The notes beneath the pieces were generated by a model. It saw nothing but the letters and a program-made list of their open reading frames with translations. It made no database searches and was not told the origin of the DNA. Shown here in pieces: positions 11,801-58,800 of a DNA stretch of 64,000 bases (within the stretch, counting starts at the first letter, position 1; each line of letters opens with the position of its first letter). The stretch comes from Sipunculus nudus (taxonomy: Eukaryota > Annelida > Sipuncula > Golfingiida > Sipunculidae). The stretch covers positions 48,220,079 to 48,284,078 of the forward strand of contig CM049309.1 of assembly GCA_026874595.1 (NCBI GenBank), read 5' to 3'. Both the position numbers and the translations under genes were made by a program.

Positions 11801-14800
11801 TATTTATTACAGATAAATGTTTTAGGTGAAAGACCATAAACTCATCAGTATTATTTCTGTTATTTCTTGCTGGTCTCTCGATCTTTTTTCAAAGAAACCA
11901 TTACATGCATGTATATGACACAAAATGTTCTATTGCTGAAACTGATAAAACTGTGATGTTCATACACAACATTTCAAGAATTACAGTGCATCTTTACATC
12001 TTCCTTTGTTAGCTGGACAAAATTCATGTTTTATCTCACCCAGAACATAAATTTTTGGTCCCACAGTCCATTAAATAATATACTTCTTATTGTTTACTCA
12101 TTTTTACTGACTTATTTGGTGTGGCCTTGAAACTTACTTCCTGGTTGTAAGCCCTGTTATATTCCTCTTGCAGGTAACCAGAGTGTCTGAGGCCAAGCTG
12201 AGGTAACTTTTCATCTTGTATACACACGGTACTTCTGACCTGGGCCTGTTTGTATAAAACAAACACTTGTTGAAGCAAGCTTTCATAATTTGGTTTTATC
12301 ATATAATTAAATGGACATCAAGGTTACTCAGAGTATAAGCGTTCAAAGTTTCTTTAGAAAGAAGCTCCCAAGGGTCAGTGATTCAGCTAAAACTGGCCAA
12401 GCCAAGACAAAGACCAAAAGAACAGTACCTGACACTGAGACAAAGACCATATACATGTTTACCAATTTACCAAACAGTCATCCACTCTATTACACCAGAG
12501 GCCCCCACCCCCCTGGAAAAAAAAGAAAAAATAGTGAACCCTCCATAATATCAGTTAGGTGATGAGAACAAGACTGAACATGAGATCTACGTCATTGCCA
12601 AGGATTACTCTTCCAGCTTAGCCTGGAATTATTAACTATTTTATCATTGTACATTGTTTGAATGCATTCATCTTACAGTATATGCCACATTAGCCAATTA
12701 AGTATGAAAAAATGGTATCTTATCCATGCAAAAAGACACACATAAACATCAAACCTTGACAATGGATTCATTAAATGTGTCTATATGCTATGACTTGATA
12801 AAATATCAAAGCAATCAAGTAATAATTTCAACATTTACTGCCATAAGCCTCCGGTAATTTGTGATACAACAGTTTATGCCCGACATCAAAGAAACATATT
12901 CTAGTCTCTTTTACTACATTACGTTTTCAGCAATGTATGCAGTATGCCCGAAGGGTTGCCTTATTGTATCTGTTATGGCTACTAAGCAACAGTCATAAAA
13001 TACATAGTACAAATCTTTTAAGAACTGCTGTCCTGAGGTACCCTTCTGTACTTCCTGACTTTCAAAGAACTTGCAAGTCATCAAACATATTATTAAATTT
13101 TATTTTGCTTTTATAATACAAATTTCAATATGTGCCAGGTTGTATTATTTACATACCTACCAATGGTAAATGACAAAAAAAATATTCTCCTTGAAAAAGT
13201 GGCTTGCTTTAAAACAAGGTCTACAGGCCTAATGCGAACCTGTGCATTGGGAAATACACCAGGTATAATGCCTCATGCTTGACCATTATGTACATGAACA
13301 ATGCAAGTACTAAACATTTTGAATAAGAAACAATTACACAAACATCACTGCTGAAATTCTGGCATTGGTGCACACAACACAAAAATGATTGTAGCTGGCA
13401 CCACAAGTCTTGTATACAACGAAGCTATCAGAGATATATACATATGCCTAATTTCAGACTGATAAATCAAACACCTCCTGATAAATAAGCAAGCAAAGAT
13501 CATTGTAGGTGGCACCACCAGTCTTGCATACAACAAAGCTATTTGATATGTATAAAAATGCCCAATTTCAGGCTGATATATCAAATTGCTCTGTAGAAAT
13601 AAGCAGGCTCATACACTGTGCAAAAGTCATTGTAGGTGGCGACATCTGTCTTGTAAACAAGAAAACCATCAAAGACACATAGACAGGTCAAAATATCAGG
13701 CCAATACATCAAACTGACCTTCAAGAGTCTGATGCATGGGTGAGAAAGGCAGTTGCCCCAAATGAATTGTGACAAATTTGCTAGCTCAGGCTACTGCACT
13801 GAGTGAACTCATGACCTGCACCTGGCTAGACTGAGTGAACTTTTGACCTGTACCTGGCTGCACTGAGTAAACTCTTGGCCTATTGCATAATCTGACATAG
13901 TTGGCAGTCTGCCAAAGCTATAAATAGATCCAGGCTGAACTTTGGTGCCAAATCTGATGCTGTGGGCAGTCTGCCAACGCTATAAATAGAATGCAGCTAC
14001 TGCACTGAGTGAACTCCTGACCTATACCTGGCTGCACTGAGTGCAGTCTGCCAAAGCTATAAATAGATTCAGACTGACATTTAGCCTGTTGTTAAATCTG
14101 AAATAGTAGCCACATCATTGCATAAGCTCACAGATTGGCTCCACATGCAGTCCTGAGGGGCATGATACCCATGAGGTGATCACATGATACTCATGAGGTG
14201 ATCACATGCTACCCATGAGGTGATCACATGCTGCCCATGAGGTGTTCAAATGACACCCATGCGGTGATCACATGCCTTGTGCTTGGCTGCACTGATTGAA
14301 CTCTTGACCTATATCTGACTGCACTGAATGAGCTCTTGATCTGTTGCAAAATCTGAAACAGTTGGCAGTTTCTCAACCAATTAAAAGATACAGACACAAT
14401 CTTTGCCTGTTAGTAAATCTGTTTGCACATACTGAAAGACTTCGGAAAATTTGAAAATGCTTTTTTTAAGCTGACATATTCATTAACTTTTTACCAAAAA
14501 TATACATAATAATCAAAGATGCAGTCCTTTCATTGTTAAAGGTCAAATAATTCTGCCAAAAAATCATTCAAGTAAACTTAAAAAAAGGCCACCTAAAATT
14601 AATTTTTGTGCAATGTTACAGAAGTTATAATTGGTACAACAATTTAAGAAGAACACTATTGCAGTCCCAGGTTGAAATAGACATAATAATGGCCATAAGA
14701 CCATCTTAAGCTCTTCACAACTCAACCAAAAATCAACAAACTCAATCTGTTCTTATATGATTGAAAGAACCATGTCCTAGGATAATTCTTTTGAAAAACT

Positions 14801-17800
14801 GAATGATTCAACTTGACAGTTTCATCATAAAGATTATAAGATGAAAGAGGCTAAAATTATGAGATTTTGCCCATAAGAAACAGGTCAATGTAAGTGGCAC
14901 CACAAAATCCGCAACTTCAAATATGAGTCATGTTACCAACATTTGCACAATACTTGGTAATGCTAGGTTCTGTCATTTCTGAGATTACTATGTCAGTATG
15001 CTTTCTTGGCCAAATGACTAAGTTCAAATTCGTGTAACTCGGCCAAAATTCACCCAAATTTAACCATTTGAGCAAACTTGAGAGAGATGGTATGAGAGAT
15101 TATTTCCGTGAAATATTGAACAATTTGGCTTGACTGTTTTGGAGAAGATTTTTAAAGTTTTTTTTAGCTTTTTCTGTATAAAATCTAAAAAAATGCAGTT
15201 TTTCAGATGGCTAATTTTTTGCATTAAATTTCATGATGCTAGCTCCAGTCGTTTTTGAGATAGTATGGGTTATTGCACAGATGACAGAAGCTGGACGCCC
15301 AAACACCATCACATTAACTAACAGGTTTGCTAAAAATTTCTACAGATGTATACTGAATGCAAAATTATAATACAGATACATCTCACTGATGGTAAATTCT
15401 TGAAATAAGTAGTGTATGGATACTAATTATTTATAATCCATGTACAGCCGTCTTTATATACCCACAGAGAGCTGTATACCTGTAATTGTAAACATTGCCT
15501 GGCATTAGGAATATCTAAAATCATAAATCTACATTTTTTAAAAGCTTTTAAAAAACATTCTTGTCAATATTAATTATATATAACCTGAAATCTAAATGTT
15601 AAGTGGCATGATGTAACCAATGCTGATAAACTGGTGCCAGGCTAGATGTATATGCTTCACACAGCTAACATATATGGTAAAAATTACTCAATTCAATCTT
15701 TATAATTCAGCCAAAATTCATTCTTTGGAACCATAAAGACAATTATTATAAGAATTATTCAGGGGATTATTCTTGTAAAATATTAAACAAATTAGCCTCA
15801 GTGGTGTCAGTCGAAAAATGTTTTGCAGGTTTATAACTCATATGGGAAAATACAGAAAAATGGCTAAGTTAAGCTTCCCATAACTCGGCCAAAATTCACT
15901 GAACCAAAAACCATTTGAACAAATTTTAATTATCAACATCCAAGGATAATTAACGTGTGAGATTTAAGAATTTGGCCCCATGGTTTTTGAGAAGAAGATC
16001 TTTGTAGCCACTGAGCTAAAATGGGCTGTTATGGCATATGACTAAATTCAGCTTCCCATAACACAGCCAAAAGTCACTGAACTGAGACCATTTGAACAAA
16101 CTTCAGAAAGCACTACCCTTAGATCATTTCTGTGCGATATTAAACAATTTGGCCACATGGTTTCAGAGAAGAAGTTTTTTGTAGCCCTCATTATGATAAG
16201 GGCACTGATGACCCCTGTACAAAAAAGGCTGATGCAGGTGGCTCCACCAATACCTCAATTTAAGATAAAACTCATGTGACAAACATTGGCATAAAATTTG
16301 GTGATGATAGCTCAAGCCGTTTCTTAAATTGAAATTTTAATATGCTTTTTTGGACAGATGACAAAGTTCAACTTCCCGTAACTCGGCCAAAAATCACTGG
16401 AACCATTCGAACAAACTTGAGAGAGATTGTTCCAAGGATCATTTCTGTGAAATATTGGACAATTTAGCTGAACAGTTTCAGAGAAGAAGATCTTTAAAGG
16501 TTTTTAAGGTTTTTCCCTAAAAAATCTAAGAAAATGCAGTTAGCGAAAAAATAAGCAAAATCCGGTAGAGTTTTTTAGATGACTAATTATTTGCATAAAA
16601 TTTTGTAATGCTAACTCTTGCCGTTTCAAGATAGTATGGGTTAAAGTACAGACGACGGACGACGCCACACCATCACATAAGCTCACAGGTTTGCTAAAAA
16701 AAACTAAAATCAACAAACCCATCTCTTTTCTCCTGTCCAAATTAACAATTAACAAATTAAGTCCAAAATCATTTGTGTGAAATGCATTATTCATTAATAC
16801 CTGTTTCTAAGTTATCTCTGAACAATTCAGAAATAATGTCCAACATGCCATATGAAGGAATACAATAATTAAATCTGATCTGTTTTTTTCTTTTCATATT
16901 TTGAAAATATTTGAATCATAGTTATTATAATTTTCACAGAAAACCATTTTGTGTTTGAAATTAGAGAAACTCTACCAAAATCGCATGTAAAGTTGAGCTA
17001 GGGGACATGGCCCCAATAGTACACATTCTGGATGTGACCCTGGATATTTTTTTGGATCATGTTAAATTGCTGCTTGCATAATGGACAATTGCACATAAAA
17101 TTTTTGAAAGTCCCATTCTTGTTCTTGCTTGACTGTATAATATTATGGTAATATATGATCTCAGACCTCTTTTACTTAAAAGAAACAAGGCCTGCAGGCC
17201 TAATGCGAACCTGTGCATATGGATATACACCAGATATAACGCTTCAATGCTGAACCACTACTTTTCATATATATGAACAATGCAAGTACTAAACATTTTG
17301 AACAAGAAACAATACACAAACATCACTGCTGAAATTCTGGCATGGGTGCACACAACACAAAAATTATTGTAGGTGGCACCACCAGTCTTGCATACAACAA
17401 AGCTATTTGATATGTATCAAAATGCCCAATTTCAGGCTGATATATCAAATTGCTCTGTAGAAATAAGCAGGCTCATACACTGTGCAAAAGTCATTGTAGG
17501 TGGCGACATCTGTCTTGTAAACAAGAAAACCATCAAAGACACATAGACAGGTCAAAATATCAGGCCAATACATCAAACTTACCTTGAGCCTGATGCACAT
17601 GGCTGACCAGGCTTAGGTGAGAAAGGCTGTTGCCCCGAGTGTACTGTGACAAATTACTGGCTCAGGCTACTGCACTGAGTGAACTCTTGACCTGCACCTG
17701 GCTAGACTGAGTGAACTTTTGACCTGTACCTGGCTGCACTGAATGAACATGAGGTGATCACATGATACTCATGAGGTGATCACATGCTACCCATGAAATG

Positions 17801-20800
17801 ATCACATGCTGCCCATGAGGTGATCACATGCCTTGTGCTTGGCTGCACTGATTGAACTCTTGACCTAAATCTGGCTGCACTGAATGAACTCTTGATCTGT
17901 TGCCAAATCTGAAACAGTTGGCAGTTTCTCAACCTATTCAAGAAACATACACAATCTTTGCCTGTTATGTAACTCTGCTAAAATTTATCCAACACAAACC
18001 ATTTGAACATACTTGAGAAGGCTCACCTCTGGGACCATTTCTGTAAAATATTGAACAATTTGGCTGGACTCTGTACAAGAAGAAGAAGTTTTTTTTTCAG
18101 CTTTTCCCCTGTATAATCTAAGTAAATGCAGATAGCAAAAATAAGCTGAATCCATCAACATTTGATATGTGACTGAAAATTGCATAAAATTTGGAGATGG
18201 TAGCTCCTGCTATTCCTGAGAAATTATGAATAGTGTATAGATGATTTGTAATATCATAAATCTACATTTTTTAAAAGCTTTTAAAAAACATTCTTGTCAA
18301 TATTAATTATATATAACCTGAAATCTAAATGTTAAGTGGCATGATGTAACCAATGCTGATAAACTGGTGCCAGGCTAGATGTATATGCTTCACACAGCTA
18401 ACATATATGGTAAAATGACTCAATTCAATCTTTATAATTCAGCCAAAATTCATTTTTTGGAACAATAAAAGAACAATTATTATTAGAATGATTCAGGGAA
18501 TTATTCTTGCAAAATATTAAACAAACTGGACTCAGTACCATCAGTTGAAAAACGTTTTGTAGGTTTATAACTCATATGGGAAAATACAGCAAAATGGCAA
18601 AGTTCAGCTTCCCATAACTCAGCCAAAAATCATTGAACCAAAACCATTTGAACAAACTTGAATAATCAACTTCTAAGGATTATTAATATATGAGATTTAA
18701 GAATTTGGCCCAGTGGTTTTTGAGAAGAAGATCTTTGTAGCCACTCAGCTAACATGGGCTGTTATGGCATATGACTAAATTCAGCTTCCCATAACTTAGC
18801 CAAAAGTCACTGAACTGAGACCAGTAGAACAAACTTCAATTATCAACATCTAAGGATAATTAATGTGTGAGATTTAAGAATTTGGCCCAGTGGTTTTGGA
18901 GAAGAAGATTTTTGTAGCCACTTAGCTTACATGGGCTGTTATGGCATATGACTAAATTCAGCTTCCCATAACTCAGCCAAAAGTCACTGAACTGAGACCA
19001 TTTGAACAAAGTTGAATTATCAACATCTAAGGATAATTAATGTGTGAGATTTAAGAATTTGGCCCAGTGAATTTTGAGAAGAAGACTTTTGTAGCCACTT
19101 AGCTAAAATGGGCTGTTATGGCATATGACTAAATTCAGCTTCCCATAACACAGCCAAAAGTCACTGAACTGAGACCATTTGAACAAACTTCAGAAAGCAC
19201 TACCCTAGGATCATTTCTGTGCGATATTAAACAATTAGGCCATTTTGTTTCAGAGAAGAAGTTACTTGTAGCTGTCAGTATGATACGGGCACTGAGGACC
19301 ACCGTACAAAAAAGGCTGATGCAGGTGGCGCCACCAATACCTCAATTTCAGATATGACTCATGTGACCAACATTGGCATAAGATTTGGTGATGATAGCTC
19401 AAGCCATTTCTGAGATTGTGATTTTAGTATGCTTTTTTGGACAGATGACTAAGTTCAACATCCTGTAACTCGGCCAAAAATCACCGAACTTAAACCATTC
19501 GAACAAACTTGAGAGAGATTGTTCCAGGAATCATTTCTGTAAAATATTGGACAATTTGGCTGAACAGATTCGGAGAAGAAGATTTTTTAAGCTTTTTTAG
19601 CGTTTTCCCTATACAATCTAAGAAAATGCAGTTAGCCAAAAAAATAAGCAAAATCCGATAGAGTTTTTTAGATGACTGATTTTATGCATAAGATTTCGTG
19701 ATGGTAATTCTTGCTGTTTTCAAGATAGTATGGGTTAACGTACAGACGACGGACGAGGCCACACCATCACATAAGCTCGCAGGTTCCCTAAAAAAAGACG
19801 AAAAGGAGCTGATAAAAGGTGGAAAAACAATGCGAACTCCCACATTCATACTGAGAAATAGATTTTGCAGATTTTCACTGACCAACTTGACACAAGATGA
19901 AACTAAGTTTTGTGATGGTCTGGCATCCAAAAACACAAATGTGCATCTTGCCAAATGTAAAATACACTATTATTCTGATTTATTTATATTGCTTGGCCTA
20001 AGATGCAATCATTTTTTATTGTAACAATAATTAAATATAAGACTAGGCACCCGATTTATAATATGAAAACATAATGTCTTAATCTCCAGATTTGTCACAT
20101 TAAAATTTTGAAAGAGGTCCAGCATGAGACTTCATTGAATTTAGAGTGAGAGTTATTACCAGTGCCCAGTCTGTAGCCCTCTGTTCCATGGGAGACGAGG
20201 GTTGTTCTCTGATGAACCACAGCACACATCTCATCAGCACCATGTAAGTGGCCTTGTAGCACAGGACAGATGGCAGTGCACACAACCTCCCTAGCAGCTG
20301 TCCAACTGTTGGCAGAGCAGCCATACAATCGTCAACAGTATCCTGAAAAAGAATTAAACCTTCATGTTTTATTTCCAGGCTTATTATAAACTTTAAAGGG
20401 GCATAATCAGGAAAAATATTATGCCTATTCTTTCACACCATCAGTTCAATTTTACTTTATACGAAAGTTTCCCAGCAAACAGTCAAAGTACCGTGCATTC
20501 GGCTGTTTTACACCTTGTTATGGCTCCATGTGTTCGTAAACACATTCCACACATGTATGTTAACCATAACAAGTCTGCATGACTGCAGGTCTGTGAGCCA
20601 CAACGTGATAATTCAGCTAGGGGGAACATGTATTCCATTTTTTTGGGACAAGTCAGTCAGGGCATCTCCTGATTGACACATGTTGTGGCCTTTGTTTATG
20701 TTGACACCTGTGACCACACCTGTTCAACTGTTTTTCTAAACTCTTTTACATGAGTCAGCAAATGGTTTCAGGGCAATATTTTGGCAGATATAAATTTATT

Positions 20801-31800: not shown

Positions 31801-34800
31801 TTCAGCGGACAACAAACCGCCATCTGGTGTCTAAATATATCATATACCGTCAAAGCTGGCAGCGTGAAAATTGTTTCTTTACAAGCACAAGATTTCCGCT
31901 GCCTCAGGAGCGTAATTGCAGATGACTTCTCAGCTCCTGAAATCCAATTTTATATCCCTGGTTATGTGGCTTCAGTCCACATATGCATATAAATTGAATC
32001 TGGCTATATACATTATTCATAAAAAAGGCAAATGCAGTGTTACACAATATATGAAAAATTAAATGAAATGTTAGCTGTATACATTATCTTCTTCTTTGAC
32101 ATGCATGCAATGAGACAAAAATATCCTTGATTACAAATATCTGGCAGCTTGTAACATTCTTTTAAATGCAGTCATCATAAATTTATAGTGTACCTAACAT
32201 GACTGGCAACCAGCTGATGCAGGGCCTTAAAATTATTTCTGAGGCTGTTTTGATTTTTTTTTTTTAAATTCCTTAATTAAGTTCGTTAATTGATGTTTTA
32301 TATTGGTAAATTGTCCTTGCTGAGTCTAGTTTCTGTACAGCTGTATAGATAAAGTGGAAATTTTCTTATTTTAACCAAAGTTACTGTTTCAATAAATAAC
32401 TGGGCATTAAAGTAAATACTTTTTAAAAATGGTTGAAAACAGATTAAAATTGATATTCCAATTGAGATACTCTTCCATATTTTGCAGATTTAGTTTATTA
32501 ATACACACTTTATTATGGGTATTTCTGCAATATAAGTAAGTATATAATAACCACATGGAATGGAATGATTACGAGCTGATATTTATATACCATTGAGACA
32601 ACAGCTGACAGAGGCCATGCTGGGTTATTGTAGGTTTGTTATCTCATCACTTAAAATTTGTGCTCTCTTGGGAGTCAACTAGGCCACATTAATATCAGCC
32701 CAGCTGTTAAAGTTGTGCTATATTATCTAGGTCTGGTGGCAGGCTCCATTTCAAGATATATGAGTTATCTATAAAGTTTTGAGTAGCTCTGCTGGTAAAT
32801 TGTGAATTTGTGATCATGTAATTTGTGTGGTAACATTGTCAGTCATAACACACAAGTCACAGGCACTTGCACAGAATAATACCACATTTAAGTAAAAGGC
32901 ATCAACTGCAAATTAGTAAACAAAGAAACCTTTGTACCGACTGGCATTTATATACATGTAATATTGATAAAGTGTTGGTTTTGTTCAGGAAGTATTTTGC
33001 ACCACATATTATGGGGCATGATTGTTATTGTATCCCCAGACAAAGTCGGGGGATACTATGGTTTCATACCGGTCCCGCCGCCGCCGCATATAAATCTTGT
33101 TGGCGCGATAACCCAAAAAATATTTCACGGAACTTTACCAAACTTGGTATATGTATAGATATGAGTAAGAGGACGACGCCTATTTAAAATGAGGTCATGA
33201 CCTTTACTAGGAGAGTGTCCTTAACCTTGAATAGGTCCAATATTGGGGAAAATCACACAAATTCTTTAATATCTCAAGAAATCTTGCATGGATTTATCCC
33301 AAAATCAAGTTGATGGAAGATCATGGATAGGGTTGTCATGTTCCAGAAACTGGTGGCGCCACCTATTATTCTTTACTTGTTTTCATGCCGTTTAATACCC
33401 CCAAAATTGCCACCTTACAGTACTGTGAGCATTATAAGTCAAAAACTAATGGACAGATTTCTTTTATATTATGCATATACATAGGCATGGTTATGGGATG
33501 ATGTTTATTTAAATTGGGGTCATGACCTTTCCTATGATAGTGGCCTTGACCTTGAATATTGCCATTTATGGTGAAAATCACACACCTCTTATGATATCTC
33601 CATTGTTGATAGCCTTATGGATTTCAAACATGACTTATGTATGGCCCACCACTAAAGTAAGAACCCTATAGGTTCTAGGGTCATGAGGTCAAAGGTCAAG
33701 GTCACTGGACTGGCATTTTAAAAGATACTGTGGATGCATTTTAAGCCAAACTTTAATCCCAGGTCTTCCATCTTGAATATATAGCTCACTTGCCAATAGT
33801 GGATGATCCATATAAATTTTGGGGTCACAAGGTCAAAGGTCAAGGCCACAGGAGCTATCTGTCCAAAAATTAGTTTCTGGATGATAATTCCTGCTTTTAT
33901 TGATGTATTGATTTCAAATTTGACTTATATATGTCCCATTGAAAAAGCAAAACTCCAATTGATTTTGGGGTCATGAGGTCAAAGGTCAAGGTCACAGGAC
34001 ACATCTTTAAAAAGATTGTGGATGCATTTTCAGCCAAACATTTCATCTCAGACCTTTCATCTTGCACTTATAAGTCATCTGCCAATAGAGGAAGACCCCT
34101 AACAGTTTTGAGGTCACAAGGTCAAAGGTGAAGGTCACAGGAGTCATCTGTCCAAAAATTAGTTTCTGGATGATAATTCCTTCTTTTATTGATGTATGGA
34201 TTTTAAACTTGACTTGTACATGTCCCATTGGAAAAGCAAGACAAAATTTATTTTGGGTCATGAGGTCAAAGGTCAAGGTCACAGGACACATCTTTAAAAA
34301 GATGTGGATGCATTTTCAGCCAAACATTTCATCTCAGATCTTTCATCTTGCACATATAGTTCACCTGCTAAGAGTGGAAGACCCCTATCAATTTTGAGGT
34401 CACAAGGTCAAAGGTGAAGGTCACAGGAGCCATCTGTCCAAAAATTAGTTTCTGGATGATAATTTCTGCTTTTATTGATGTATGGATTTCAAACTTGACT
34501 TGTATATGTCCCATTGGAAAAGCAAGACCTTAAATGATTTTGGGGTCATGAGGTCAAAGGTCAAGGTCACAGGACACATCTTTTAAAAGATGTGGATGCA
34601 TTTTCAGCCAAACATTTCATCTCAGATCTTTCATCTTGCACATATAGTTCACCTGCCAAGAGAGGAAGAACCCTATCAATTTTGAGGTCACAAGGTCAAA
34701 GGTGAAGGTCACAGGAGCCATCTGTCCAAAAATTAGTTTCTGGATGATAATTCCTTCTTTTATTGATGTATGGATTTCAAACTTGACTTGTATTTGACCC

Positions 34801-37800
34801 ATTGGAAAAGCAAGACCCGAATTGATTTTGGGTCATGAGGTCAAAGGTCAAGGTCACAGGACACATCTTTATAAAGATTGTGGATGCATTTTCTGCCAAA
34901 CAATTCATCTCAGATCTTTCATCTTGCACATATAGTTCACCTGCCAAGAGTGAAAAACCCCTATCAATTTTGAGGTCACAAGGTCAAAGGTGAAGGTCAC
35001 TGGAGCCATCTGTCCAAAAATTAGTTTCTGGATGATAATTCCTGCTTTTATTGATGTATGGTTTTCAAACTTGACTTGCATATGTCCCATTGGAAAAGCA
35101 AGACCCAAATTGATTTTTTCATGAGGTCAAAGGTCAAGGTCACAGAACACATCTTTAAAAAGATCAAGGTCACAGGACCAACATCTTCAACAAGATTGTG
35201 GATTGTTAGATGGAAGAAACAATAAATATGCCAAGTGTCAGTATATGCTGCTTAAAATGGGGGTCGTTCTTAAAGGGGGTGGGCCTACTATGTCTGGGGA
35301 TACTCTGGCACCTGCGGTGCCAAGAAATGTCTAGTTAAATTTAATTTTTGAAAGCCTGTTAAGCTAATTATGCTGTTGATGAAACATTTCAAATATTAAT
35401 TTAGTTTATATTTGAACAAAGTCTAGCATTCTAGGCTGTAGACATCCTGACAGGATGTTACATGAGATGTAATGTTTTATAATATTAGATAAAGTGTACT
35501 TTATTCTCGAAACTATTTACAATCAAGTGTACCTTCTCTAGCTGTTACATGTCTGCTATCTGGCCAGCAGATATAGACATAATTTACAAACCTTGATTGA
35601 ACTTTGGAATTTACTATTCATTACAGAGGCGGAGGGCATATACTGAACTTGAGTGTGGCATAGTTTACAATGTTGTTTTAGATATTTGGATTTACAAATA
35701 AGGCAGGTGAAAAGCTGACTTTAAAGCAAAAAAAAGTTTCTGAGCAGATTTTGATGCAAATACTGTGTGGGATGAAGTAACACTGAAGAACAGTCCATTA
35801 AATTTTGGAGGTTATTTGATTTGCCATTTATGTATTTCTAATTCAATGGTTCTTCCAATGGTGGAGCCATCCATTGGTATATCAGTGACTTGCCCAGTTC
35901 TAGGTCTCACCTGTGTGACTGTGTCATGTAAACTTTGCTCCAGAGCTGTAACACTATGTATACAGGAACTCAGAAAGATGGAGTTAACATGCTGATGGCG
36001 ATACATGTAGGCTCTGACTTCAGTTAAAGATACAGGGAATTTAAGAATTTACCTAGATTCACATCACATTTTACCAATCAATTCTGGTTAAGTGCTAAAG
36101 ATTTACCTGTGTTGGTTAGGTACATTGCTGATAAGCAAGATTCTGATAAAGAGGCAGGCTCATCAAGGAAAATAAATAAATTTTAGGAAGCCTTTATAAT
36201 TTAGAAAAGCCAGAAATTAGAACTGTTTGAACAAAAAGGATCCTGAATTGATGGTCTATGTACTAAACACCTAGTGCTTATGCAAGTATATTGTATTGCC
36301 ATGAGTTTGTATTTTGTTTTGAATTTACTTCAATAAATCCGATCTACTCACTTAAGAGATGCAATATCAATTACACTCCAGATCTTGATCGCTACACCAG
36401 TAGTCGTAATATATAAGATTCTCTGAGTAGATGCTAAAACTGCTAATCAAAGCAGTGGCGTCAATTTTTCTTCCAGGGTGGGGGGGATGACACACACACA
36501 CACATATATATATATTATATATATATGTTTTGGCACCTGTATGACACATTTCATATATATATATATATATATATATTTATACTTAATCAAATTTCAAGTT
36601 TATTTCAAAATAATATTTCACAGTAAACTCATAAATAGAGCCTGTCTATATATTCTATTCAAATCTATTTTTCATTTACAATATATATATATATATATAA
36701 TACTTGGAAAAGTGGGGGGGGGATGATACTAAATAGCACAGATTTCATACATCAGATCACTCACCATGCTTGGATTACTATATTTATTTTTTATATGTAC
36801 AAGTATTGCTGACTCATTATTAATGGTCGCTGGACATTTGCTCAAGCATGATGAGTGGAGAAACAGACAGGAGCATTTTGAGAGCCACCTGTAAGTTTAA
36901 GTGATCTCTCACAACATATTCTTAGGACCATGGTTTACCCTTTCACAAAATTTCATAGAAATTCATTGAGAATTTTTAAAAGATGTTGTTTGGGCAAACC
37001 GAAAAAAGTTTGAATTTGGCTGGATCAGCATCTAGATCAAGATCATCAAAGGATGTTATATGTTCACACTGATTGTCTATTAATCTGGTAGCAATGTAAC
37101 ACCTGATGCTAAAGAACTCCATTTCTTAGAGCTTATGGAACACTGACCCTGCTTATCGGAGTAGGTGGTTGTCTTATAATAAAGCTCTCAGTCTTGAATC
37201 TTCTGGACTTGGAATTTGCTGGTGTTTACGTTCTGGTCATCACTGTCCTGTGCTAATCACTTCATATATGTATATTATTAGTATATAGGCTTACCGTAAG
37301 TTGTATTAGATAGGCAGTTTCAACACAACACTGTTTGTATACTCTAACAAAGGATGCTGCTTATGTTTAATAAAAATGTAACAACAGTTTAATTAGTTTA
37401 CAGGCCACTAAAGAGCACTCAAAATGGGACACTATAATGCCATGATATCATCAGTATAGATTCTTTCAGGACAAAAATATTGCATATTATTTTTAAGTTT
37501 CAGTGATTTTCCATAATCTTCAGCAAACCCTTTTAATGGGAAATGTTAAAAATTTGATAAAGATACAAAAAAAGCTTGAAAAGATATTGCTGTTAGTGTT
37601 AATTTAAATAGTGTCAGAATTTGTCGGAAATCTAAAATAAATGTAAACAGGAAAGGGACTTATAAGGTCGTTTTTCTTTATTTTGTCATAGAAGTTGCAG
37701 TTTTCATCTTTTATGAGCAAAGACTTTAATTTTGAAAGTATATCTCACAATGGATTATCAAGTGTGGTGGATTTCTTTATGATAAAATGCTGCTTAAATT

Positions 37801-40800
37801 AAGTATAATGCATTATTGTTAACAAAAATAAGTTGGTATGAAAATAAAAGTGGAAGTTGGTTAAGTGGGCAAACAGTTTTGGAGCTGTTATGAAAGGACA
37901 CAACGATTTTCAGCCTGCAGTTGCCATGCATGCATCATTAAACCAATGTTGTATTTATGTATTTGTACAGTGAAGTAGATTCAAGAGTTTTACCATGTGA
38001 TATTACAGGCCCACCATAAGAAATGCTACCTCATGATAAAATAAGTGGTGTACACACAATGTCACACATAAAGGCAACTTAATACACTTATCAGCCAGTA
38101 CTGTCTTTTTTATGCCCCCGCCACAAAGTGGCCGGGGCATATAGTTTTACCCATGTCCGTCATTCCGTCATTCCGAAATCACACAGTTGTACAGACTTTT
38201 TTTCGCAATGCCTGCAGATATTGGCCAGATTTTTGGTGTGTGGGCAGATAATGACCAGTTACAGATCGAGTTCGCGTTTCGTCCCGGTTGACCTACTTTT
38301 GACCGTTTTACAGCTCCAAAACTTAGAAAATTTCATGAAAAATAGAAATTTTCATGACAAATACACATGTACAGACTTTTTCACAATGCCTGCAGATATA
38401 TTAGCCTGATTTTTGGTGGGCAGATAATGACCAGTTACAGATCGAGTTCGTGTTTCGTCCCGGTTGACGTACTTTTGACGGTTTTACGGCTCCAAACTTA
38501 GAAAATTTCATGAAAAAAAGAAATATTCATGACAGATACACATGTACAGACTTTTTTTTCGCAATGCCTGCAGATATTGGCCTGATTTTTGGTGTGTGGG
38601 CAGATATAGACCAGTTACAGATCGAGTTTGTGTTTCGTCCCGGTTGACCTACTTTTGACCGTTTGACGGTGCTCTAACATAGAAAATTTCATAAAAAGGT
38701 GCACATGTATGGACTTTTTTTTGCAGTGCCTGCAGATTCAGGCCTGATTTTTGGTGTGTAGGCAGATAATGACCAGTTACAGATCGAGTTCTTGTTTTGT
38801 CTCAGTTGACCTACTTTTGACCATTTGACTGCTCCTGAACATAGAAAGTTTCATGAAAAATATAAATTTTCATAACAAATGCATATGTACTGACTTTTTA
38901 GCTCAGCTGACTATAAGTCATCTGAGCTATAGTCGTGGTCCATTGTCCGTCGTCCGTCCGTCTGTCCGTCCGTCCGTCCGTCCGTAGATGTGGCACGTTT
39001 TGAAACCGTAAGACCTAGGAATCCAAAATTCAGCATAATGTTTGATGTCCCCAAGATCTCCTACCAAGCCGAAAACTGGGTCTTTGCGACTTCGTTCCTT
39101 TGAGAAATTAAGGAAAAACCTCAATTTTTTATTTAAATCCTATTTTCACACTTCAGGACTGCCTAATTTCAAAACCACTCATTTGTTTTTCCTCATATTA
39201 ACCATAAATATTCTTCTATATAGTTCCTATGTACATGCCAGAAATTAAGTCTGTTAAGTATAAATTCTTTAAGTTATGGGCCCAAACATAATGGACTTTG
39301 TAAAAAATCAGGAAAAATATTTACTCACTTAACATGAAAAATTTTGAAACTAGAGTCTATTTTCCCAAGTATATAACTATGTTTAATTAAGATTCAATTG
39401 TTTACCCAAAATTAGATCTGAATTTTGTAAATTTTTTAAGTAATTAGCATAAAAATAAAATCAGTACCTTAAATTTTGCCCAACTTTGACCATGGCACGT
39501 TTTTTTCCTGTAAGTACCATTGATTTAATTTTCACAGCATGTAAACATAAATATTTAATTTGTTTAAATCTGAAATTTGGAAGTAAAAGCTTGAAAATTA
39601 AGCTAGTTATTGATTTTTTTCTTGAGGCTCTATTGTAGTCATTTGCTTTGATTACAGATTACAGATGCAGGGTCCCACTCCAGGTCACTGGAAGTCAGCT
39701 ATGCCAGGGTTTCTGATTTGTTACAGTCACTGGGGGAGATCCCCTGCTGTGACAGGTGTACAGTTATTCTGATATCACCACCCCATTCCCCCCCCCCCCC
39801 CCCCCCCCCGCAAACCCAACCCACCAAATGTTATGCAGTATTGTTATTGTTTTCACTGTATCTCCTTATTTGTAATGCTGTTTCCACTCTGATATGCAAA
39901 AACTTTCCTTAAAAAAGTAATTCAAGGTATAATCCAGAAGATGCAATGTTGTGTAATGTAACATTTTTAAAGAAATCATTTTTCTTTTAAATGATTTTAC
40001 CAATCATAATGGAACCCATCAGTATGCTTAAATTATGATAAAATATGAAGCACATTATGGATAAATAAAGACACAATTCAAAATTGTGAAATCTAAATCA
40101 AGTATTTTTTTTAGACATTTATTGTTTTGCAGATTTAAAAGATATATTTTTGTGGTAAAAAATAAATAAACATTTGTATGCATGATGTGGTGTTATCTGA
40201 CAAGATTGAGATTTATGATGATGCAATTGAGAATTATGAATTATGAAACTTTTATATTCAGATATATATGTTATATTGAAAATGTATAGAAATATAAACT
40301 TAAATTAAAAAAAAAATTGATGTGATAAAAAAATGAGGATTTGTTACAAACATTTGTTCATTATTTTCCTGCATCAGCAGAATTTGAGATCAGGCTTTGT
40401 TTGCCATGTTTTATGTTGTTAATTAGTTATATTTCAACTGTATACATTTCATAAAAAAAAAAATATTTAATAATTTATATTATACAAAAAAAAGATTTGA
40501 TTGAACAAATGTGTAAACTACTGAAATGTCAACAGTTAATCGAAAAGCCAACTAATGATCATGGTAATTGTACAGATCATTTGTTCACAAACTGCTCACA
40601 TGCTTCAGTTTCAACATTAGGGAACACATAGTCAGGTCACAAAATATTATTTGCAACAATTTCTTGCTCATCAATACAAACCAATCATATAAACCAACCA
40701 TGGCCTTTATTACCTCTTCCTCTTACACTTTATCTCCATTTGATATTATTTTAGATTTTTACCTTCAAGGTTAACGTCAGCTGAGCATAGTGACCCATAG

Positions 40801-43800
40801 GTCCCTTGTTTGTACTGATAATGACAGTTACAGATCGAGTTTGCGTTTCATCCCGGTTGACCTACTTTTGATTGTTTTACGGCTCCTAAACATAGAAAAT
40901 TTCATGAAAGACAGAAATTTTTATGGAAAATGCACATGTATGGACTTTTTTTCACAATGCCTGCACTTACTGGCATGATTTTTGGTGTGTTGCTTGATAA
41001 TGACCCGTTACAGATCGAGTTTGCATTTTGCCCTTGTTGACCTACTTTTGACCATACGACACCTCCTGAACTTAAAAAATTTTCCAAATTTTACAAATGT
41101 TTCTAATTTGCCCAAGGCGGGGGCATTCGTGTCGTTCCGACACATCTAGTTTAAGTATGGTTTTTATAGCCAAAAATTTTAAAATTAACATGTTAATGGC
41201 TCAGTGCAGTTAAGTATACCGGGAACTCGGTATATCCAGTGCAACTATATATGTATATCCTTGCATGATTAAAACAGCCCCAGTCTGTTTGTCAAGTTAT
41301 GAGGAAGGTCCCAGATTTAACCCAGGGGTCAAGGACCCTTTGAGTGATATTATATAAACACCTGTGCAAGGTTCAGTAGTGAGATATATGAAAATGGATG
41401 ATGCTGGAAAGATTTAATATAGTTAGAAATTATTTTTCTGTATGAATGGAACTTCTAAGCTCACTTTACAGAACTTGTGTAGTCATTATTCAGATAGAAA
41501 ATAAATGTAAGAAATACATTTGATAGAATGGGTGAGATCTGCTTCATATAGAATCAACAGCCCAGTTCATTTTATCTACACTACTCTGCTATCATCTTTT
41601 GATTCTGGCTGGCCTACATGTTCATGTAAAGGTGCCATAACTGTCAGATTGTGCTTATTAATCAACTCACAGACTTTGTAACTGGTGGTAAGAGTTATAC
41701 AAAATGTAGTTTATCACAGTAGAGGCAAACACAAAGTAGTTCATCTGTGTTGATTGTTATGAAAAGTTGAAAAGTGTATTTAATATATATCATGAAGTAT
41801 TTTGTAATTAGTTATATAGGACTTATCTATTTGTTTCACTAATCTATTTATGATGTCATGCTAAATATCTGATTACTCATAACTGCATAAATGTAGTGTG
41901 TGTGTGCAGTAAGAAACATATTTAAAGGGGCCTAAATCACCAATAAAGCATGTTGAAGTAACACAAGAAACAGTGTCACCTCTGTGAAATAAATGGGCAC
42001 CTGCCAAAATATTGCCCCCAAACCATTGACTTACTCCTGTACACGAGTGTTATACTTATAAACAGTGGACTGTGTCACTTGACTTCATTTTAAATGTTAG
42101 ATTCACTGTGTTCATCATTTAAGATATTTTGGTACTTTACACATTTATTCCTGGGATCACTGACAATAAAGTAGCTTCAGAAATGAGTCATTTGTGTCTG
42201 ATAAATATGAATAAACTGGTATAATAATACTAGTAAAATGCAGTGTAATTGTTTATTATTGTAATATGTTTGCCTAATTTAAATTTAAATGGCTTTCATA
42301 CATTGCTTAATGATTTAAATTGTCTTGATACAAAATCCCATGTTAAGGATAGAATGTCTTAAAGAAAGCTCACATAGGTTCTTTAGATGCTTGATCTGCA
42401 CTTATATAAATAATAACGTGTATCTGATTCCATGATTACATTTGCCAGTTTAACAGTGCCATTCTGCTGGTAGGAAGGAAATGTAATAAGATGCATCTGG
42501 CTAGGTTCAAGTTGTTAAAGTTCAGTCTGTAACATGCAAATAGACATGTTTGCTTAGCTGAGAAGTTGTTTATTTCTTTTCTGTTGGTTGTGTCCTGTTT
42601 CTCTTCTTTGAAAAGGCCACACCATAAATAAGTTGTTCAGCAGACTTTGGGACCAAAAAATAAATACGCATTGAGTCAGTGTATTTTTTATGTATTTATT
42701 TGTTTTAATATAAAGTTTACCAGTCAAATATGTGGAATTTTGCCAACTTGCAATTCAAAACTGTGCTTATAGAAAATATCTTTGAATGAGACATATATGA
42801 ACAACACAAAGTTCAGTATGCATTCCATGATAATGTTTTGAATACTCAGAAGAGATTTATGCAAGAGCACTAATCAGCGACATAATCAAAGATTTAAATT
42901 GGTACTTGCTAAAATGAAAGGATCCACAAAATAAAGCAGTGGCAAACTTGTAGCCTGTAGGACAGTTACTAGTATGTTTTTGGTGGTGTGGCCTTTCTGT
43001 TGTCACCAATTCAGGAAAAAGCCCTGTGTTACCTTCACTGAACTGCAGTATCCCTTGAGTTCATTCGGCCTTTATCAGTACCACAGACATTGATGGCACT
43101 TTAGTACCGTAGTGACTTGGTTATTGTTGTATTCCAAGTTGGAAATTAGGTATTACATACTTTACTGATTGTGTCGTAGGTTTAGTTTTACATTGGCTGT
43201 ATTGATTTTCTCTCAAGTAAGATAATTTGGAAATCTTGTTTGGGCAGCCTTGTTTAAAGACAGTGTCAAAGGTTTAGGTCATCACTGGAAAAGAAAATTA
43301 ATGGCTACACGTATAGTGAAATATGTTTTAAACTGGCCTACATTCAGTACCTAGCTTGTGGTAAAGTAATTATCTCCAGATTTTTTTAATTAAATTATTA
43401 CCAGGTAATTAAAGCTTCAGATGTATTGAAGTTTTCTGTTGGTCCATTCATTTTTCACATTAAAGAGAATTCACCTTCTTTCTTAAATAAAACTGTTTGC
43501 ACACCATATAGTTTCAGCATTTTGTTATCCTAGGATTATAAAATTGACATGATACAACCATCAACTATTTGAAAAGTCAAATGGACATATCATTAGCAAG
43601 CTAATAACTGTGTAACTTTTATAGATGAGACCTTTGTGTATACCATATATTTTGAAAATTAATTTGGGTGGTTTGGGATGATTGTTAGATAATATCACAG
43701 GTTGAAGTTAAATAACAAATAAGAAAATACATTTCATAGACAAAAAGTTCAAGGTCATCATAAACCAATCATACAATTCCCTTCTTTATAAGCACATTGG

Positions 43801-49800: not shown

Positions 49801-52800
49801 AATAGAGCATCAGCCGCTAATATAACATTCACTGATATTTTTATGAATCCTTGACTTTAACCTGTTTCTCTGGCTCAGGGTTAGAGCACAAGACTCAAAA
49901 GCTGGGAGATCATGGGTTCGAATCTCAGTTAGGTGGTGAGGTTTTTCACAATCGGCCCTCACCCAGGGGGGAGAATGCTCTGCAGGCTTAATGGGAAGGC
50001 AGTGCTGAAGTATGTGATACTGCGCTGTCACGGAGTCCAAAACCGGAATGGAATTCTGCAGATGTACAGTTAAGATAGTGTAAACTTCAGCGTGAAGCTC
50101 ACACCAAAATGAAGGTGACAACTCACCCTCAGTCACGTGTCACCTGGTCAGTAGCTTGAAATCCGTCGTTAAAGACTTGACCGCACTTGGCTAGCGTACT
50201 GACTCAGAATCTCGGCAGGTGACCTCTCCTTTTCGCGGTTTCCATCCCGGCCCTTGGTAAGGTCGCTGGCAGGTCGGCCTGGCTGCACTTCGGCGCGAGT
50301 GCATTCCTCTTACATCCCTCCCCTTTCCATAGACTGGCTGGTGTGACTGTAGCAGAATGTCTTTAAAACACATCATTAATCAGGGTTATTTCTCTTCAGT
50401 CTAGTATATGACAGCACAACATATCAAATTAAACTTCAATTACTCGAAACACTAAGACGAATACTTATCATTCCGAAAAAATACGAGGCTTCATATTAAA
50501 ATTGTCTTATGACCCGTTGTCTTCAGACCTGTCTTCCCTGACAATATGCGAGCTGGTGTCCATCATGAACACAGGCAGGACAGGGCCGCCTCATATTCAC
50601 TCATCCTGATTTCCAGCCCTCACACTGTCGAGTGATATTGTATACCTCAGTACTTAAGGAACAAAGTAAACTGAATCATGCATGGATGAGAGCAGAACCA
50701 GGCCGCTTCACATCCAACCGTTACAAACATTACTAAGGCACCATGCAGCTGGATGATTACTAAGATTAAGAGGGGGCTCTGGAGATTCAGTGCACTTCTC
50801 ATAGTCACACTCCTCATAATCCGGAACAAATTCGTGTTCCTGTGCAAGATTCATCTGCAAGGGACAAAAACCATCCGTTGCATCTCCACTGCAGATGAAG
50901 TCTCTTAACTATGTTAGTTAACGTTTCTAATACGTAACATATCTAAGCGCTTATTTAACAAAATCTTGGAGGTGCCTCAGACTCTGGACCCTGCGGCCTC
51001 TGCTGGTGGTGCGATGGTCCTTTCCCCCCCCAAGTTGCAGAGCTTCACTGTCATGGACACCTTTTTCTCTCTCAGCTACCATCTGAGAGCGTTCCACTTC
51101 TGGGTCCGGCGTCCCTACAGCTGCATCTAAGGGATCAGAACCTTCTTGAGCAGAGGGTCCGTTTCCTGAAAGGTCTGATTCCTCTAGATCTGATTCCGAA
51201 TATAGGTTTCCAGTGACTGGAGAATCACTGTCTGCATCAGAGTGTCTATCGCTGGTTTCTTCTTGCTCAGGGTTTTGCTCCTTTGAGAACTGGATCCTGG
51301 TCCAGCGAAGCCAAAATGGCAAATGCTCTGTAGGACAAGCCTTCAAGTTATGGTGTATGAAACAGTCGCGTTTCCTAGTCTTCACACTATAGAGGGGATG
51401 CCTGCTGACGATAATCAAGTAGGGTCCCTTGTATACTGGCTGTAGTTTTGGGCTGGTGCCCTTCTTGTTGGTTTTATCTAACTCATATACCAGCTCACCA
51501 GGTTCAAACACTCTCTCACGTGACTTAAGCTCATAGTGCCTCTTCTGATAGGCTTGTATCGTCTTCAGATTTTGCCTGACCTGTTCATGGATCTTAGTTA
51601 GCCTGTCCCTAAGGTCCTTGACCCACTGGTTTACGCTACACCCCTGTGAGTCTTTTGTTCCGCCAGGTGCTGAGTCAAGTATAAGATCCTCTAGTTGGAC
51701 TACTTCTCTCCCCAGCATGACCTGATTGGCCGAGAAACCGGTTGAACTGTTCACCATTGAGTGCTAAGCCAAAGCTATCATTGGAAGATCACGATCCCAA
51801 TGTTTAACGTTCCCAACGATCAGACAACGTATCATTTGGAGGAGTGTCCTATTATGCCTTTCAAGCTGTTTGTTGGAGTTTGGATGGTACGGTGTCGTCC
51901 TGGTACGTATTTGTTTCCTGCCTCACTATCAGTGAACGGGACTAACACATCTAAATGTACTCTCTCCATTGGATAACCAGCGTGATTAGGTCTTTTCGTG
52001 GCCTTTTTGTTCTTGTGGCACAAGTCACACGTCTGGCAGTGTAACTTACAATCTTGACTCATCTGGTACCAAATGTAAGACCATTTCAGTCTTGTGAGCG
52101 ATTTCTCATAAACAAGGTGTGCTTCAGCTTTACTACCGTGGCACATGCTCAAAACTTCTGCTTGCAGGGACCTAGGAACAACGAGGTATGTCCAAGGGCC
52201 GGCTGTATCTTCCAACTTGTAGTTCAGCGCTGGATCTATAAGCAACAGCTGAGACTTGAGGAACCACAGCCACTTAGTCGCCTGGCTGTTCAGATTGAAG
52301 TCTGCCTGCGTTGGCAATTCATTGTAGTCTTCAGATGACATCAATATTATCACTGATCTGATGTCGGGGTCCTGTTCCTGTAACTCAGCAAGTTCAGTTG
52401 GAGAGTAATCCTGCACAGGATTGGATGGTGCTGCCTCCTTCTCTTGGGAACTTTCCTCACATCGCTGGACTGTCGTGGCAAATACAATGTGCTTATCAGG
52501 CGAGGCAAACCAATCACCTGCACCACAAACTGCTGAGTCCCAACCCAGCAGCTTGGCTGCCTGAAACTGGGAATCCGGGCTGTCTGAGATGCAGGCATCG
52601 AGCCGCCTCATCCCCAATGACAACACGTCGTCGACATCATTGTGGAAACTCTCCCACAGGTAATGAGCCATGGTGCAGTTCCGGCAACCTCTGCAAGGAA
52701 GGTGTTCCCCATCGCAGACAGCTTGATAACAATTGCACCTGTCCAATAGATCTTGCAAACGGGAAAGCGTACCTTCGCTCTGATGTATCACGCCTGGCCA

Positions 52801-55800: not shown

Positions 55801-58800
55801 CAGCCAAGACTCCCGTCACATCTTCTAGATCATCTGGACCAAAATCTGGGTTTTCATCTCGTAACAGGATGATCTCTTTGGCGGTGTCTTTATTAAGTAT
55901 ATCAGGCAGATGTTCAGCCATCTGTCTGGCTGACACCTTACAAACATCTAACTGCTTATGACTAGCCATTCTATAACAATAAGTGAATACAACAGGCTAT
56001 TGCAATTACTCCTGCTTCCTTCCTTCACTCGCTCCCTTTATTTTTTAATGCAAGGTGAAGAAAGTAAACAAAGAGCAGGGCTTACTAGAACTGTAAATAA
56101 CTGGTTTAATAAGCCAAATATGAAATTGAAATAATATAAAGTTAGTAGCTTAGTGAGCTGGGACAGGTGAAGTTTTCAGCTGTACCAACTGTTCACGCAT
56201 ATATGTGACATATATAAAAGATATGCAACTGATCAGCTTAAGCATCAAGCCATATGAACAATGAGACTATATACTGTAATGAAATAAGCACAGTATAGAT
56301 ATAACAGACAGAGGTGACTTAGAAATAAACAAATAAATGCAGGCTCCAAGTTTAATGAAAGAGAAAACTTATGCAGAAAACTGCAAAAAGCTAATATACT
56401 GAAGGGCTAAGGGGATTAGTCAATAAGGCAAAATGACTTAAGCTGAGCCCTAAGTATTAGATACTTCAAAAAAAAAATAGTGCCAGAATAAGTGACCTGC
56501 ACTAAAAAGGCTAAGGGGCACAATAAATATATCAGTATGTTTGAGTATGGCTCAATGAGCAGCTCATTGACAGCCAGGGGATCTTTAATGTAGTACAAAC
56601 TACAAGGACACTGCAAGCTCCCAAAATAATGTCAATAGAAATGTGCTTAGTAATCAAGGTAGTAAGTCAATCACTTAAAGTTACAGCAACTGGCAACTCT
56701 CAATGATAAGTGTAGTAAGTTTATAACTGAAAGTAATGAAAACTGGTAGGGAAATACCTTGATGCTTAAGTCATGAGACAATGCTGTACGATTATATTAT
56801 TACTGTTACTTGTTTTTCTGGATTAGTTGTGACAAGGTGTGGTGTAGCAAGGGCACAGTTATAAACACAGCTTAAATATAGACTATGAGCTGCACAGACT
56901 CACTAGTTAAGAGTCTGAGCAACTCGCTTAAATATAAAGCACTTACAAGTGTAGCTACTTACAGTGAGGTCTGTAAGTAAATGGCAGTGAATGGACCACT
57001 GACAGTGAATGTGTATTGCACTGCTAGTATATGTCAGTGCAGATTTCACTGACAATGAAAGCCAAATGCAGTGAATGATTTTCACTGCAAGTATATGTCA
57101 GTGCAGATATCACTGACAGTGAAAGCCAAATGCAGTGAATGATTTTCACTGCAAGTATATGTCAGTGCAGATATCACTGACAGTGAAAGCCAAATGCAGT
57201 GAATGATTTTCACTGCAAGTATATGTCAGTGCAAATATCACTGACAGTGAAAGCCAAATGCAGTGAATGATTTTCACTGCAAGTGTATGCCAGTGCAAAT
57301 ATCACTAACAGTAAAAGCCAAATGCAGTGAATTATTTTCACTGCAAGTATATGTCAGTGCAAATATCACTGACAATGAAAGCCAAATGCAGTGAATGATT
57401 TTGTCACTGCAAGTATTATGTCAGTGTAAATATCACTGACAGTATGAACAAACTGCAAATTGGTTCAATGAAATTTTTGGTGTCAGTGATTAGCTGTCAC
57501 TGAATGCAAAAAAAAACTTGTTTTACAGCAGATGTCCTGGCAGAATACTGGCTATTAGCAAGATAATAGGTAGATTTGACAAAAGAGGGAGTAATTTTAA
57601 TAAAGTATTTAAATTTTGCTTAAGAAGTGAATTTTGAAACTATTTAAATTGTTGACAACAGGTAGGGTTGGTCCCAGAAAGACCGTTCATCCACGTGTGC
57701 CGCTCCCTCTGATCACGTGATCAGCAGGCAAACTGTTTACTTCAGGTTTAACAAGGCACAGTAATAAATTTAAAAGGAATACTGGGTGGCCGAAAGAAAA
57801 GATGTATTCAAATATTGTGTGATGAAGTTATAGGTCGCTAGGACATAAAATTCTGCCTGTACAACGGCTGCAGAGCGGGGTTGCATGCACAGCTGAAAAC
57901 GCAACCAATACGTTATGGACAAGGCGGGCGACAATGGAGGTATTGTCGCGGGGCCCGCTTCAATTTTGTCAAAATTTGACAAAAATATTTATCTTCGTCG
58001 CCAAATGTAAACTTCAGCGTGAAGCTCACACCAAAATGAAGGTGACAACTCACCCTCAGTCACGTGTCACCAGGTCAGTAGCTTGAAATCCGTCGTTAAA
58101 GACTTGACCGCACTTGGCTAGCGTACTGACTCAGAATCTCGGCAGGTGACCTCTCCTTTTCGCGGTTTCCATCCCGGCCCTTGGTAAGGTCGCTGGCAGG
58201 TCGGCCTGGCTGCACTTCGGCGCGAGTGCATTCCTCTTACAATAGCATTAAAATTGGAGGTGGTTACCATAAAAACAAATTCTTGACTTTGATAGAGTTT
58301 ACTGGAAACAGAAAAAAACAATCAAAATCATATCTGAGTCAAGATTAAATGAGAAATTATTAATTTAGTCTCTCGCAAGTCTTCTTCAGTAAGAGCAGTC
58401 ATTCAACCAAACTTCCTGAAAGTCATGTCACTAGATTTTGAGAATTTATCCTGCTTGATGCAAAGAAGTAAACACTGATTACACATACCGGGTAATTCTC
58501 CTTGCTGCAGTTATTGATAAAGAAGCCTGTAAAATTTTACAAAAAGGATGTATTTGAATGCACTTGATGGACCTCCAGTGTACATTAATAGTCACTGAGA
58601 TCAGGAAGCACTGGAGCCATCATAAACTTCAGGTGACCTGTGATATATAATCACATGGAAGACTTCCCACTGATGTTAACATTACACACAACCACATGGG
58701 GTCCAACTGTCATGGCCATGCTTTCTGTGTTCACCTCTGTAGCTCATAGTACATTTTACAAAACAAATTTGAATATTCATGATCAGCTGTGCAAACCTTG

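Follow-up and report, generated by a model that had tools for sequence, protein, structure and literature searches.

A 64,000-nucleotide stretch of the Sipunculus nudus genome (GCA_026874595.1, CM049309.1:48,220,079-48,284,078, forward strand; hereafter the window) harbors three repetitive elements, termed A, B and C, which are unrelated in sequence and built to a common plan. We assign them, at a probability of about 0.88, to three families of HINEs, the non-autonomous elements moved by Helentrons (the Helitron2 class). The assignment is based on their anatomy, the central arrays of A and B, the TT insertion sites of A, their dispersal in thousands of copies, and the presence in the same genome of an element that encodes a Rep-helicase-endonuclease and whose one located end has the same layout. 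This agrees with the original prediction, which had read the three as non-autonomous Helitron or Helentron elements.

Each element opens with a start hairpin (starting GTATCCCCAGAC at 33030 in A, ATGCCCCCGCC at 38112 in B and GCTCAGCTGAC at 38901 in C), repeats its first 11 or 12 bases exactly, in inverted form, near the far end, and closes with a separate hairpin followed by CTAG or CTTG ahead of a T (Table 1). The distance from far arm to element end is 31 bases in A, 23 in B and 22 in C. Central tandem repeats, common and not obligatory in HINEs, are present in A and B, and none is listed within C. A sequence-blind search for this layout, with an exact 11-base arm, returned three matches in the window, namely A, B and C, versus one in 40 dinucleotide shuffles. 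The layout of the three elements is beyond chance, and the predicted plan common to unrelated sequences stands, with every arm, hairpin and CTAG/CTTG end located. Permitting one arm mismatch, the reversed window yielded three chance matches, so one-mismatch cases carry little weight alone; this version was rejected as a discriminator, its signal being inseparable from chance. A scan of the window against Rfam at gathering thresholds gave no matches.

Table 1. Positions in the window of the elements that follow the common plan in full (A, B, C) or in part (D)
Feature	Position	Strand	Description
Element A	33030..35334	+	probable non-autonomous Helentron (HINE); central array of ~288-bp repeats
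A start hairpin	33030..33056	+	8 bp, A.G mismatch, 3 bp; 3-nt loop
A far-end arm	35292..35303	+	exact inverted copy of first 12 bases
A far-end hairpin	35306..35322	+	TGGCACC/GGTGCCA; 3-nt loop
A terminus	35331..35334	+	CTAG, then TT
Element B	38112..41149	+	probable non-autonomous Helentron; ~180-bp repeats; split by C
B start hairpin	38112..38140	+	7 bp, C.C mismatch, 5 bp; 3-nt loop
B far-end arm	41116..41126	+	exact inverted copy of first 11 bases
B far-end hairpin	41129..41143	+	GTGTCG/CGACAC
B terminus	41146-41149	+	CTAG
Element C	38901..40808	+	probable non-autonomous Helentron; nested within B
C start hairpin	38901..38927	+	6 bp, C.T mismatch, 5 bp; 3-nt loop
C far-end arm	40776..40786	+	exact inverted copy of first 11 bases
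C far-end hairpin	40792..40803	+	GACC/GGTC, only 4 bp
C terminus	40805-40808	+	CTTG, before T
D copy 1	17186..19788	-	far-end arm (2 mismatches), palindrome, CTTG; no start hairpin; limits by eye
D copy 2	13215..16694	-	far-end arm (1 mismatch), palindrome, CTTG; no start hairpin; limits by eye

A version of the search with a stricter demand on the far-end hairpin was applied to 344 kb comprising the window and further loci, many of them chosen for the A end they contain. It gave 11 raw matches and none in the reversed control; within the window it recovered A and B and missed C. Three of the 11 rows describe a single G start and two are doubtful (starts CTTTTGACAAA and ATACCATGGTA). This version revealed two more families, F (TGTATCCGCC, at locus L014) and G (GCTTGCCGGAA). 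As F is similar to A in the first bases and just past the hairpin, it may be a relative of A. Directly inside the start hairpins sits an AT-rich stretch (TATGG at 33057, ATAGT at 38141 and TATAG at 38928), and F and G are alike in this feature.

All genome-wide pattern counts refer to the genome from which the window derives (1.43 Gb). It contains thousands to tens of thousands of ends per family, so that the mechanism of these elements shapes it. The start-hairpin patterns of A, B and C have 1826, 2963 and 27291 strand matches, respectively, with none in the controls. The 3' end patterns are found 3456 times for A (reversed control 0; the TT after CTAG is part of this query and hence no evidence), 3459 times for G (reversed control 0) and on 8923 strand matches for C (reversed control 2). 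In addition, 142 head-to-tail junctions of G occur in the genome, with a control of 0. Among 31 A 3' ends, 21 retain all seven Watson-Crick pairs and six differ by one pair, the remaining four being of other length and left unscored. The 3' stem of G displays compensatory changes, with the outer pair altered from C-G to T-A and the second pair once from G-C to A-T.

Comparison with empty sites defined the boundaries of A at two loci. One A copy, which runs from locus L005 into L006 and was treated as a single ~3.5-kb element from its two ends, is inserted in a 55-bp array; its flanks, joined minus one TT, align to intact 55-bp units with 114/118 and 112/118 identical positions and no gap at the junction. 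Another copy of 2584 bp at L001 sits in a D-type repeat. After removal of one TT, its joined flanks align with three unoccupied sites in the window, at 97, 89 and 91% identity and again without a junction gap. At both loci the empty site has one TT and the filled site a TT on both sides, with no longer duplication. Since the joined flanks minus one TT match empty sites at these two loci, A inserts into TT. For B, the boundary was seen on one side, loci L058 and L060 being 98% alike as far as the first base of B in L058. The nested C was considered as a clean empty site in B and ruled out by ~37 missing bases. The boundaries that had been predicted thus hold at two A loci and on one side of B, and the C junction is unclean.

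A TT on both sides of filled A sites and a single TT in empty ones would also fit cut-and-paste miniature inverted-repeat transposable elements (MITEs) that carry terminal inverted repeats and duplicate a TT target. We regard this explanation as highly improbable, as the far arms sit 22 to 31 bases inside the ends and are followed by a hairpin and CTAG or CTTG, the G elements form head-to-tail junctions, and a Helentron Rep gene resides within an element of the same start design. MITEs were rejected on the non-terminal far arm and the presence of the Rep gene. The canonical Helitron (Helitron1), which begins with TC, ends with CTRR, inserts between A and T and lacks a start hairpin, was rejected as well: the present elements do not start with TC, they do have a start hairpin, A occupies TT sites and C ends with CTTG. 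The CTAG ends of A and B conform to the CTRR of Helitron1; the CTTG of C does not.

The genome has 143 matches to the Rep domain (PF14214) among the 150 of 195 candidates that were scored, ten of which lie in open frames of at least 1600 codons. One Rep lineage combines DUF6570, OTU, Helitron_like_N, PIF1 and Exo_endo_phos, which is the Helentron domain set. A second lineage (L065:2905-6000) has an N-terminal Herpes_teg_N domain (tegument protease-like), and the domain search did not find OTU in it. Within the reading frame, the Rep copies of the pairs E1/E2 and E3/E4 (L061-L068) show 86% and 93% similarity. As this similarity ends near the frame edges, a nearer pair was used to find the element ends. 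The non-coding parts seem, from these comparisons, to have been exchanged faster than they diverged, the closer pair sharing long non-coding flanks. An F-type 3' end at E4 1673-1713 was rejected as the end of the E4 element, since it appears to have been inserted separately, close to a splice acceptor.

The nearer pair, two Helentron gene copies at C7:31578448 and C11:50385293, is 98.8-99.4% alike (99.4% over 7368 bp). The similarity passes the reading frame and stops exactly at the TT before a G-type start hairpin, GCTTGCCGGAAATC...GATTTCCGCAAGC. The reading frame runs opposite to the orientation that the hairpin defines, an arrangement described earlier (PMC3627910, PMC4067079). On C11, a shorter G element directly precedes this autonomous element, 3' end to start, and the autonomous element shares an array with neighboring shorter G elements, up to 89.5% over 1100 bp. 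The other end lies beyond the further 5 kb covered, which contain a truncated G start and the G array again. This G-type start, at L074:3188 and upstream of the Helentron gene, is without most of its right hairpin arm and has the G array behind it.

These findings bear on how many autonomous partners are at work. We give just over an even chance to the explanation that every family is served by a separate autonomous Helentron reading that family's end sequence, the shared layout reflecting common descent of the mechanism and not the use of one enzyme. The sole linked autonomous element bears a G-type end beside shorter G-type elements, no nucleotide similarity was detected between the Rep lineages E1/E2 and E3/E4 apart from simple repeats, and 143 Rep matches allow many partners. 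By contrast, ends of type A, B or C were found with no Rep gene, four Rep loci having been covered over at least 16 kb and none to both ends. The single rolling-circle machinery for several families, suggested in the original prediction, stays a hypothesis, as these loci yielded no partner of A, B or C. Most likely, A, B and C depend on the Helentrons of this genome, each on a partner recognizing that family's own end or its hairpin shape. An autonomous Rep-helicase element with ends of the same hairpin layout had been anticipated; it was recovered for one end, of G type, and for none of the A, B or C ends.

Besides this lack of a Rep gene with A, B or C ends, several observations weigh against assigning A, B and C to Helentron-driven families. 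The link of the autonomous element to G is limited to one of its ends, the junction and the array. One TT versus two is compatible alike with TT duplication and with insertion between two Ts. At the junction of C in B (38900/40808), the B repeat lacks ~37 bp, as counted by hand, and the far-end hairpin of C is weak. Moreover, 7 of the 27 scored 3' end variants of G break at least one stem pair, and neither D copy folds a start hairpin.

The D copies had been predicted to show the same plan with one mismatch. They do possess the far-end arm, the palindrome and CTTG, but the start hairpin is missing and one copy has two arm mismatches, as counted by eye; D thus conforms partially to the plan. 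D copy 1 contains empty versions of a site that is occupied by an A copy elsewhere.

The start hairpins share a further feature. Folded as DNA, all six carry one mid-stem flaw, located 6-8 pairs from the stem base, and have 3-nt loops throughout. In addition to the mismatches of A, B and C (Table 1), the F hairpin consists of eight pairs, a bulge and five pairs; that of the autonomous G element consists of six pairs, a bulge and seven pairs; and that of the shorter G has 13 pairs, one being G.T only. The far-end arms pair with the first bases flawlessly, an exact match being one criterion of the search. In all six cases, the first bases were computed to be more stable when paired with the far-end arm than with their own right hairpin arm, which for F was taken one base shorter. 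Among the matches listed, all on C1, the stem is flawed in 94/97 sites of A and 100/100 of both B and C. As copies share descent, the families are the unit of count, that is, five and perhaps four independent ones. The differing forms of the flaw (A.G, C.C, C.T, G.T and bulge) argue for shape over sequence, without proving function.

The elements are most likely mobilized as follows. As the domain set suggests, an HUH-type Rep would nick at the element start, and the helicase would then peel off one strand. The exposed far-end arm would pair with the first bases, open the start hairpin and mark the stop. This end-to-end pairing would be favored over the local hairpin, because the start hairpin is internally flawed and the far-end arm is flawless. 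Such a pairing switch was proposed in 2013 as an endpoint model (PMC3627910). We tentatively propose, as a rather doubtful extension, that the flaw might be a functional component conserved at the ends of Helentron-type elements, either a latch opened by the displaced far end, or a recognition mark for Rep, or both. It could thereby help the elements to know where to stop, and it would fit, by analogy, the 2013 switch model and the HUH enzymes that need flawed hairpins. If true, the flaw would be a shape rule open to any sequence. Recurring in unrelated start hairpins and lacking a counterpart in the far-end arm, it makes the published switch idea measurable with short DNAs.

We consider it probable, nevertheless, that the flaw has no function, one founder of each family having had it by chance and the copies having inherited it. 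Through inheritance, the 97-100 sites per family are non-independent, and the three perfect A sites out of 97, among the matches listed, may be no fewer than drift yields. The exact far arm was required by the search, so that its contrast with the flawed hairpin is biased. Furthermore, one mismatch is seen in the subterminal inverted repeats of most oyster HINE families (PMC7492417), and PMC5148889 quotes fungal hairpins that are short and appear perfect. On the other side, the flaw recurs in all six hairpins with different chemistry, three of them different mismatches, one a G.T pair and two bulges, always at a distance of 6-8 pairs from the stem base; between the two G forms, the flaw is of a different kind. 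In the titles and abstract openings searched (figures and supplements lying outside this scope), a hairpin flaw in Helitrons is not stated; it is perhaps a new observation.

The plan closely resembles that of known Helentron-type elements. HINE/DINE-1 elements (PMC4067079) likewise possess subterminal inverted repeats (12-15 bp there), a start marked by a palindrome or an inverted repeat, a far-end stem-loop, central tandem repeats, a TT preference without clear target duplication, and a Rep-helicase-endonuclease partner, once in the opposite orientation. They differ in sequence, and the main text of that report, figures lying outside this scope, does not use 'mismatch', 'bulge' or 'imperfect'. 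The Cg_HINE/Pearl elements of bivalves (PMC7492417) share with the present families an 11-12 bp subterminal inverted repeat, an adjoining complementary inverted repeat of 7-12 bp, a far-end palindrome, satellite-like arrays and a GTCC-type microsatellite as in C. Some Cg_HINE families are unrelated in all modules. That study could link them to no autonomous element, whereas here one Helentron is tied to a HINE-type end by one boundary. In Helitron2 (PMC3627910), the 5' asymmetric terminal inverted repeat folds into the 5' hairpin, and its 3' counterpart lies just upstream of the 3' hairpin; compensatory changes and a sometimes reversed open reading frame are also found. Its main text, with the sequences of Figure 5C outside this scope, lacks 'mismatch' and 'bulge'.

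A possible parallel for the flaw comes from the repetitive extragenic palindrome (REP) hairpins of E. coli (PMC8266576), which have a mid-stem mismatch that the HUH enzyme TnpA_REP needs. This enzyme is bacterial and domesticated, however, and another REP group has perfect stems. The view that the families conserve shape and not sequence, put forward in the original prediction, is supported here, though it had already been published (PMC3627910, PMC7492417), as had the unrelated families and the pairing switch. New here are the families themselves and one Helentron gene tied to a HINE-type end. The latter bears on a point left open by the oyster work, where the HINEs could not be connected to autonomous elements.

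Among the matches listed on C1, 0-25 Mb, neighboring A, B and C copies within ~50 kb tend to agree in strand across families, and G departs from this pattern. For pairs 20-50 kb apart, the same strand is found in 22/28 A-B pairs and 27/31 B-C pairs, values that none of 500 label shifts reaches, and in 15/19 A-C pairs, reached by 7 of 500 shifts. At 0.5-1 Mb, 183/352 A-B pairs agree. Within the first 1.2 Mb of C1, C starts (63/64), B (9/9) and A (4/4) lie on the minus strand, and recurrent close C pairs hint at segmental duplication. With this region excluded, pairs closer than 100 kb agree in 56/77 (A-B), 31/49 (A-C) and 32/56 (B-C) cases, and those involving G show an opposing trend (13/35). 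Gene strand, replication direction or duplication are possible causes of the agreement. A tRNA promoter pattern has 414 genome matches, too few on C1 to serve as a strand control; at C5:52594471-52636366, more than 20 of its matches on one strand with ~1.6-kb spacing form a tandem array of tRNA-like genes.

Two further repeats were recorded. At C1:1407723-1418682, five A starts lie on one strand ~2.6-2.8 kb apart, the last one flanked by a 55-bp array; this is probably a composite of A and the 55-bp array in tandem. The window itself contains a 236-bp duplicate of 99.6% identity, at 50079-50314 and 58006-58241, ~8 kb apart.

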